A stretch of DNA of 64,000 bases from Fibrobacterota bacterium. Its GTDB lineage: Bacteria; Fibrobacterota; Fibrobacteria; UBA11236. Under the pieces are notes generated by a model that was not told where the DNA came from, did no database searches, and saw nothing but the letters and a program-made list of their open reading frames with translations. The stretch spans positions 62,001-126,000 of the forward strand of contig JAEKLQ010000039.1 in NCBI GenBank assembly GCA_019509785.1, written 5' to 3'. Both the position numbers and the translations under genes were made by a program. This document shows positions 206-2,481 of this stretch, one piece after another. Every line of letters starts with the position of its first letter. The stretch's first letter is position 1.

Positions 206-369
206 AAGAGCCCCTAACATAATGGTTGCTCGGCTGCGGCCGGCTACGCGGCCCGGGGCCTGCGTCGGACTCAGTCGCGATATTCTCCGAATATCGCTCC
301 TTCGTCCTCCTTGGCCGCGGGCCGCTCGCTCGGCCTCGCTCTTCGCCCCCATTATGTCAGGGGGCTCTT
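206..369. repeat. Palindromic repeat element, copy 1
   Basis: The outer arms 206-225 and 349-369 are inverted copies (AAGAGCCCC then TAACATAATGG, against AAGAGCCCC then CTGACATAATGG when reverse-complemented), differing by one inserted base and one substitution. Inside lies a core (about 231-338) shared with the copy at 1842-2002. The core has its own hairpin: GCGATATTC (277-285), loop TCC, GAATATCGC (289-297). The outer arms are unrelated in sequence to those of the other copy. The element fills the gap between divergent dprA and mazG and leaves little room for conventional promoters. No reading frame in it is credible. Confidence 0.85.
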
Positions 370-463: not shown

Positions 464-1285
464 ATGCCCAGTTATACTCTTTCCGACCTGTTGGCGATCA
501 TGGCCCGGTTACGGGCTCCCGACGGGTGTCCTTGGGACCGCAAGCAGACGCACGCCTCCTTGCTCAATTACCTGATCGAAGAGAGCTACGAGTTCATCGA
601 TGCCGTGGAGGCCGGGGACAAGGCCAATATGAGCGAGGAACTGGGGGACGTGCTTTTGCAAGTGGTCTTCCACGCGCAGTTGGCCCAGGAGGCGGGGGAT
701 TTCGATTTCGCCGCGGTGGTGCAGGGCATCGCGGACAAATTGGTGCGGCGCCATCCGCACGTGTTCGGCGAAATGAAGTTGGCCGATGCCGAAGCGGTGG
801 AAGTGAAATGGGCGGAGCTGAAGCGCGCGGAAAAGCAAACGGGAGAGGCCGCCGCCGCCGATGCGAAGCCCGAAGGCGGACTGGGCGAAGTCCCGAAGCA
901 TCTGCCCGCCTTGCTCAAAGCGGAGAAGCTGCAAAAGCGCGCCGCCGTCCACGGTTTCGATTGGCCCGATTGGAAAGGTCCTGCCGCCAAGATCCGCGAA
1001 GAGCTGATCGAGCTCGAGGCCGAAGCCAATGCGCTTGATCGTGATCCGGATCGCATTGAAGACGAGTTCGGCGATCTCCTGTTCGCAGCCGTGAACCTGG
1101 GCCGGTTTTTCAAACTCGATCCGGAGCGGGCCTTGGCCCGGGCGAACCGAAAATTCATTTCCCGGTACGGGAAAATGGAGGCGATGGCCAAGGGTGAAGG
1201 GAAAGATTTCGGGTCTTTGCCCCTGGATGAAAAAGAAGCCTATTGGGTACGGACGAAGGAGGAGGAAAGAAAGGGTACAGGGTGA
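464..1285 (+). CDS. mazG: Nucleoside triphosphate pyrophosphohydrolase MazG
   Basis: MazG hydrolyses NTPs and dNTPs to monophosphates and pyrophosphate; it is a housecleaning enzyme and can lower ppGpp signalling. This 273-residue protein has the usual two MazG domains. Domain 1 has the metal-binding motif EESYE at residues 39-43 and EELGD at 58-62; domain 2 has EELIELE near residue 179 and DEFGD near 200. The start at 464 is chosen because GGAGGG lies upstream and the family motif APDGCPWDRKQT follows at residues 18-29; an in-frame extension to 389 would overlap the repeat region. The last codons (KGTG and the stop) are encoded by the left arm of a GGGTACAGGG inverted repeat, so the C-terminus has been shaped by that element. 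Confidence 0.95.
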   Translation: MPSYTLSDLLAIMARLRAPDGCPWDRKQTHASLLNYLIEESYEFIDAVEAGDKANMSEELGDVLLQVVFHAQLAQEAGDFDFAAVVQGIADKLVRRHPHVFGEMKLADAEAVEVKWAELKRAEKQTGEAAAADAKPEGGLGEVPKHLPALLKAEKLQKRAAVHGFDWPDWKGPAAKIREELIELEAEANALDRDPDRIEDEFGDLLFAAVNLGRFFKLDPERALARANRKFISRYGKMEAMAKGEGKDFGSLPLDEKEAYWVRTKEEERKGTG

Positions 1286-1841: not shown

Positions 1842-2002
1842 AGAGGTTGTGATGGTTGATTTTCGCTACTACGTCCGGCTGCGCGGGCCGGGGCTGTCGT
1901 CAGGCTCAGTCGCGATACTCTCCAAGTATCGCTCCTTCGCCTTCCTCGGCCGCGGCCCGCTCGCTCGGCCTCGCAACGCGAAAATCAACCATCACAACCT
2001 CT
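1842..2002. repeat. Palindromic repeat element, copy 2, in the rimP leader
   Basis: Outer arms 1842-1866 and 1978-2002 are a perfect 25-bp inverted repeat with a sequence unrelated to the arms of the copy at 206-369. The core (about 1876-1973) is strongly similar to the other copy, including the internal hairpin GCGATACT (1912-1919) / AGTATCGC (1925-1932). The right arm ends immediately before the AGGAG ribosome site of rimP (2003-2007), so the folded transcript would place a long stem against the translation start. Confidence 0.9.
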
Positions 2003-2013
2003 AGGAGATCCGG

Positions 2014-2481
2014 TTGGATTTGACGCAGGACATCTCGCACAGGGCGGCCAAGGTCGCCGAGTCGCATGGGTTGGAGCTCGTGGACGTGGAAATTTTCCGC
2101 GCCGGCAAGCGCCGCGTTCTGCGCATCTATATCGGCAAGCGGGAGGGCGTGACGGTTAGCGATTGCGCCCACGTGAGCCGCGAGCTGGGGACGCTGCTGG
2201 ACGCCGACAACGTGATGCAGGACGAGAACTACGTGCTGGAGGTTTCCTCCCCCGGCCTCGACCGGCCCTTCAAGAGCTTGCAGGATTACCGCCGGAATGT
2301 GGGCCGCTTCGTGCGGGCCACCTTGCGGGAGCCCATCGCGGGCCTGGGGAATAAAAAGCTGGTGGTCGGGAAGCTGGAAGACGTGGGCGAGGACAGCATC
2401 ATCTTGGACACGGACGGGACGGCCCGTACCATTCCCCTCGGACTGATCGTACAGGCTAAGGTGGATGTCAGGCTGGGCTGA
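2014..2481 (+). CDS. rimP: Ribosome maturation factor RimP
   Basis: RimP helps assemble the 30S subunit. The 155-residue length is typical. The N-terminal domain has the family pattern SHGLELVDVEIFRAGKRRVL followed by IYI, and ENYVLEVSSPGLDRPF at about residues 72-87 is the RimP signature. The start is TTG, supported by AGGAG six bases upstream and by alignment with the usual RimP N-terminus. It heads rimP-nusA-infB-rbfA-truB-ribF, a conserved bacterial order. A palindromic element abuts its ribosome site. Confidence 0.95.
   Translation: MDLTQDISHRAAKVAESHGLELVDVEIFRAGKRRVLRIYIGKREGVTVSDCAHVSRELGTLLDADNVMQDENYVLEVSSPGLDRPFKSLQDYRRNVGRFVRATLREPIAGLGNKKLVVGKLEDVGEDSIILDTDGTARTIPLGLIVQAKVDVRLG

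Follow-up and report, generated by a model that had tools for sequence, protein, structure and literature searches.

Results

Two Copies of a Self-pairing Element

The window, a stretch of 64,000 nucleotides of a Fibrobacterota draft genome (G000), contains two copies of a palindromic repeat, copy A and copy B. Copy A lies between divergent genes. The following features were used.

207..368, plus strand: complete copy A of the element, 162 nt; a single imperfect hairpin, RNA folding energy about -94 kcal/mol
207..225, plus strand: left arm of copy A, AGAGCCCCTAACATAATGG; the arm family has 32 matches in the genome versus 3 for a reversed control pattern
234..339, plus strand: conserved core of copy A; 85% identical to 1869-1974, with 7 full copies in the genome
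270..307, plus strand: central hairpin, its conserved flanks being CTCAGTCGCGATATTCTCCGAATATCGCTCCTTC; sister-genus copies have a similar sequence
349..368, plus strand: right arm of copy A, CCATTATGTCAGGGGGCTCT; paired with the left arm
464..1282, plus strand: mazG, adjoining copy A; PF03819, E = 4.6e-37; used in the empty-site comparison
1842..2002, plus strand: complete copy B of the element, a 161-nt hairpin; RNA folding energy -100.5 kcal/mol; immediately upstream of rimP
1842..1866, plus strand: left arm of copy B, AGAGGTTGTGATGGTTGATTTTCGC; absent elsewhere in six congeneric genomes
1869..1974, plus strand: conserved core of copy B; from the genome copy search and alignment with the core of copy A
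1978..2002, plus strand: right arm of copy B; complementary to the left arm at every position
2014..2481, plus strand: rimP, directly downstream of copy B; PF02576, E = 2.9e-23; used in the empty-site comparison

Both copies were as described in the earlier note, which had reported palindromic repeats that share a core and have arms complementary within each copy. The two cores, each of 106 nt, were 85% identical. The arms of copy B were complementary at 25 of 25 positions, and those of copy A (19-20 bp) paired with one mismatch and one indel. An intact copy folds into one hairpin of ~160 nt that consists of the outer arms, a GC-rich inner stem, a short stem, and the central hairpin.

A further hairpin at 1271-1379 of the window has short tandem repeats as arms (AAGGGTACAGGGT) and belongs to a repeat class separate from the core family. 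Dozens of tandem-repeat-armed hairpins (GAAATGAGAAATGAG, GTAGGTAGACGGTAG), with ~50-150 nt between the arms, were seen in G122, a genome of the sister genus.

Size and Spread of the Family

The search of the genome and its relatives with the core, which the earlier note had proposed, yielded ~31 copies, distributed over two genera that belong to a single family of the Fibrobacterota. The 5.4-Mb draft of G000 (106 contigs) contained 7 full copies, two of them in the window. Nine copies were spread over three of the five congeners (three in G001, one in G002, and five in G003; none in the other two), and 15 were present in two genomes of the sister genus, G121 (five) and G122 (10). With 7 full copies in the genome, chance is excluded as the explanation that the earlier note had reserved for the case of only two copies.

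In the sister genus, a covariance model of the core served as the search tool. At first pass it returned five copies each in G121 and G122; searching G122 in stretches (2.19 Mb) led to 10 copies, the weakest two with E values of 0.07 and 0.3. With a palindromic core, the wrong strand scores with the model as well (35-47 bits), and homology was therefore checked by sequence alignment. Three sister-genus copies gave same-strand scores of 19-28 versus shuffle maxima of 14-17, and opposite-strand scores of 8-13. The best of them scored 28 on the same strand, compared with a maximum of 17 in 300 shuffles. One core copy of G122 (C1:237905-238005) is located just upstream of rimP, like window 1842-2002, and the five congeners of G000 are empty there; this may reflect coincidence, an insertion hotspot, or loss.

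The copies are short, non-coding, dispersed, and intergenic. A scan of genome contigs with the central hairpin gave matches in Fibrobacteria MAGs only. The whole element had no match among plasmids, the core pattern had none among viral contigs, and no Rfam family scored above its gathering score by covariance-model match. Every genome compared is a draft, and insertion-sequence interiors are often absent from such assemblies. Soil Fibrobacteria carry a self-pairing DNA element of ~160 bases with a constant middle and varying, usually matching ends.

The Core Is Folded and Covaries

A compensating change from T-A to C-G in the central hairpin of the window copies (GATATTCTCCGAATATC versus GATACTCTCCAAGTATC) had been pointed out before. 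It proved to be real, and 10 more pairs were doubly changed when 13 cores of the window's genus were compared, giving double changes in 11 of 33 pairs. As evident from column shuffles, the 26 doubly changed cells exceeded expectation (7.4 +/- 2.0), and none of 500 shuffles reached this number. One-sided G-U changes accounted for only 2 cells. Unpaired core positions were more conserved than paired ones (94.7% versus 90.8%). Mismatches in the modelled strand were A-C in 10 cases and G-U in 3. With A-C mismatches no rarer than G-U, selection acting on an RNA of this strand is not favoured.

Arms Fall into Several Groups and Usually Match within a Copy

Self-complementary outer arms of ~20-25 bp were found in 19 of the 31 copies, a match being counted at an alignment score of at least 13. 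Long matching arms in so many copies led us to reject matching by chance. The other 12 copies did not have matching arms, implying that matching decays.

The arms compared fall into about seven sequence groups, some of which consist of one copy each. The group GAGCCCCnAAC comprises four of the seven G000 copies, which share the arm pair AGAGCCCCnAACnnAATGG, and one arm of a fifth copy (L029), in which this arm is one-sided; ~20 further solo, short, or core-less occurrences were seen, at places adjoining TNA. The group CAGGGTGTTGAAAAAGTCC occurs in G001 and G003, with 62 and 34 matches, respectively, at up to three mismatches. The group GGGyACCTCTAAT unites L005 of G000 and C3 of G122 with L201 of G121; the likeness of the L005 arms to the sister-genus arms of C3 was not equalled in any of 400 shuffles. 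CATCTCAAxACTCC is found in L196 and C8, and L190, C1, and copy B have singleton arms.

Copy B and L005 are the only G000 copies with arms other than the AGAGCCCCnAACnnAATGG type, and no further occurrence of their arms was found in six congeneric genomes. When set against 13 other arms, the copy B arm was not significantly similar to any. Judged by sequence, only the copy B arms appear to stay unmatched in the window's genus. The idea that the L001 arm is a divergent GAGCCCC arm was rejected because the similarity was not significant.

The earlier note had regarded the arms as unrelated between copies. For the family as a whole this holds in so far as several arm groups exist, but not for the four G000 copies with one arm pair. 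Identical arms in other copies had been named as the observation that would speak for a normal inverted-repeat element; they were found in most G000 copies, in three G001 copies, and in two G003 copies, but not across the family. Terminal repeats are thus conserved within subfamilies only, with about seven arm groups round one core.

Empty Sites, Target Sites, and Deletion Derivatives

Orthologous empty sites were compared at five loci (rimP, mazG, lptB-rpoN, parA-parB, and the L201 junction), and neither arm was present at any of them. At the rimP site, occupied by copy B in the window, the element is absent from five congeners; G002 reads gattccaggag there, compared with gattcaga-[element]-aggag in the window. 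At the mazG site (copy A), both arms are absent from four congeners. Five congeners have gaps of roughly 6-25 nt without an element at the lptB-rpoN site (L005). The parA-parB (L196) and L201 sites, both occupied in G121, are represented by overlapping genes in G122. Neighbouring genes abut or overlap at three of the five empty sites, leaving no room for a native arm of 20 nt. The other three G121 sites carry no element in G122, and sites were empty in relatives at all eight loci compared. The family therefore shows insertion polymorphism with clean empty sites, and since these have neither arm, both arms arrive with the element. This result does not support the idea, raised in the earlier note, that the arms are target DNA copied in inverted orientation, for which an empty-site orthologue would have one arm.

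Target preferences were seen for two arm types. YTAR precedes 47 of 58 CAGGG-type arms (CAGGGTGTTGAAAAAG) against a background of 0.3%, and TNA precedes 18 of 43 GAGCCCC arms against a background of 3.2%, the two arms of one copy being counted separately and a few occurrences perhaps twice. Target-site duplications were present at L022 (TTA/TTA), L034 (TAA/TAA), L028 (TTAA/TTAA), L086 (CTAA/CTAA), and L098 (TTAG), as well as at the mini copies L047 (TAA) and L056 (TTA). No recognisable, clean duplication was found at copy A, copy B, or L005. In the internal deletion derivatives L086, L098, and L153, most of the core is gone and both arms are kept.

Core-less palindromes of 24-26 bp were observed as well (L047, L056, L061, L073, L133, and L137), e.g. 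TAA-GAGCCCCTAACTTTATGGGCTC-TAA. Two of them have perfect 3-bp duplications; they may be minimal derivatives or independent mini-elements.

Candidate Transposases

The arms of the G001 and G003 copies correspond to a multi-copy IS5-like inverted repeat that adjoins YTAR, so that this subfamily combines YTAR duplication with an IS5-like terminal repeat. Other elements of G001 likewise end in the CAGGG repeat, and two of these stop at contig breaks after encoding MRGIENNQESMFSYVSTE, which is 55-60% identical to the starts of annotated IS5-family transposases (tblastn, weak E-values of 0.7-10). These two contig ends (L181 and L182) probably represent the autonomous partner of the CAGGG-armed copies, a multi-copy element of IS5-like type that was collapsed where the assembly breaks. 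From these elements cut at contig ends, it is likely that the terminal repeats in G001 match those of a resident autonomous element. A Methylomonas element of the IS5 family, a tblastn match cited solely to illustrate the ends and the target duplication of that family, has similar ends (CAGGCTGGTGAAAAA) and is located between two CTAG. Elements of ~120 bp with CAGGG ends and an unrelated interior (L165, L174, and L080 in G001 and G003) were observed and represent a second MITE with the same ends.

Profiles PF01609 and PF05598, which cover part of IS5-type diversity, had no match in the 106-contig draft of G000, and no transposase gene linked to the family was found in that genome. Whether the facing arms at C31:43069 and 46396 of G000 enclose an autonomous transposon was considered; this was rejected, the region consisting of ordinary genes. 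PF01609 matches in congeners were rejected as partners; the relevant terminal repeats were absent from the four regions scanned. A crude scan for RAYT-type (Y1) HUH motifs, conducted without a positive control, found none in 2.19 Mb of G122.

Comparison with Known Systems

The G001/G003 copies resemble MITEs of the IS5 family. Their terminal repeat CAGGGTGTTGAAAAAGTCC is common to other elements in these genomes, 47 of 58 ends adjoin YTAR, derivatives with internal deletions occur, and coding capacity is lacking. Unlike in such MITEs, the interior is common to copies in other genomes that have entirely different terminal repeats. Like the Correia (CREE), ERIC, and QMITE-type MITEs, the element is intergenic, falls within the range of roughly 130-400 bp, and forms one long hairpin. 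QMITE2 has terminal repeats of 23-29 bp round a core of 113-145 bp, and the terminal repeats of QMITE1 are described as more conserved than the remainder (PMC10969869), whereas here the core is conserved and the terminal repeats fall into about seven groups.

REP/REPIN sequences moved by TnpA-REP share intergenic palindromes and conserved unpaired positions with the family. They differ in length (20-40 bp per REP versus 160 bp here), and the family has target duplications; no HUH motif was found in the scanned part of G122.

In integron attC sites, as here, self-complementary outer arms differ between copies, and the arm AGAGCCCCTAAC...GTTAGGGGCTCT recalls R''/R' boxes, the consensus of which is RYYYAAC for R'' and GTTRRRY for R'. 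Unlike attC sites, the family has a conserved core sequence, and its copies are dispersed singly between core genes. Assignment as attC was rejected because most copies lack the boxes, which are missing from the arms of L001, L005, L023, L028, and L190.

Discussion

The family is mobile, prefers particular targets, and joins a constrained core to modular arms. It is probably best explained as a MITE-like, non-autonomous mobile family of gene-free palindromes of ~160 bp between genes, the arms being terminal inverted repeats moved in trans by resident transposases. The arms would be brought with the element and would be recognised by cut-and-paste DDE transposases of resident insertion sequences, presumably an IS5-like enzyme for the G001/G003 copies and a TNA-targeting one for the G000 copies. 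Arms would match because source elements have matching arms at insertion, and old copies would lose the matching. The core may persist because its folded form matters for movement or for host tolerance. Arms may diverge or be replaced by the ends of other insertion sequences and would need only to match each other.

In a standard MITE, the terminal repeats are constant and define the family, and the interior varies. The plain MITE model does not predict a constant middle with varying terminal repeats. We tentatively raise the possibility, more doubtful than the MITE-like reading itself, that what defines the element is its folded core together with the complementarity, and not the sequence, of its ends. 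Template switching, or capture of another insertion sequence's ends, could then rewrite the terminal repeats as a matched pair and allow one core to move from one transposition system to another, unrelated one.

Replication template switching between the arms (quasi-palindrome correction), by which arms would drift yet stay complementary after insertion, is a rather unlikely account of the matching arms. Template switching is documented as a process that generates and preserves hairpins (PMC8794818). The rarity of G-U intermediates is compatible with such correction: double Watson-Crick cells far outnumber one-sided G-U cells, and G-U does not exceed A-C or other mismatches in frequency. The perfectly matching arms of copy B, which lack a recognisable target duplication, also fit. 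However, the loss of matching in 12 copies suggests that matching is mostly a property of the inserting unit and not of continuous in-place repair. Efficient correction would, moreover, have paired the internal loops of the core, which are unpaired and more conserved than the stems, and it cannot alone place a multi-copy IS5-like repeat on the G001/G003 core.

Single-strand transposition of the folded hairpin by a Y1/HUH enzyme (TnpA-REP or IS200/IS605-like) that reads the core structure is improbable. Target duplications are not expected of this mechanism, but they are present at several copies, and the crude HUH motif scan of 2.19 Mb of G122 gave no candidate. The conserved unpaired bases and covarying stems, together with the variable end sequences, would fit recognition of a folded strand, for which REP hairpins are a precedent (PMC8266576).

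Very improbable is an inverted target duplication, in which insertion copies ~20 bp of flank in inverted orientation and one arm is native. The right arm does overlap the start codon of the next gene in L196 (parB) and L201, and the left arm of L201 overlaps the stop codon of the upstream gene. Against this stand the five empty loci without either arm, the overlap of the G122 genes at the L196 and L201 sites, and the recurrence of arms between unrelated sites.

A non-mobile cis-regulatory RNA hairpin kept by selection in operon gaps is hardly credible: the hairpin is very stable and several copies lie between same-strand neighbours (parA-parB, lptB-rpoN, and nuoA-nuoB, named by sequence resemblance), but the eight compared loci are empty in relatives, copy A separates divergent genes, and neither a G-U preference in the modelled strand nor an Rfam match was found.

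Small mobile elements known so far keep their ends constant because a transposase has to read them, and their middle can vary freely. The MITE-like family described here shows the reverse pattern, one folded middle persisting over two genera with several sets of arms. If confirmed, it would make it possible to test how non-autonomous elements switch to another transposase, and whether long DNA hairpins stay self-complementary through replication template switching and not through selection alone.
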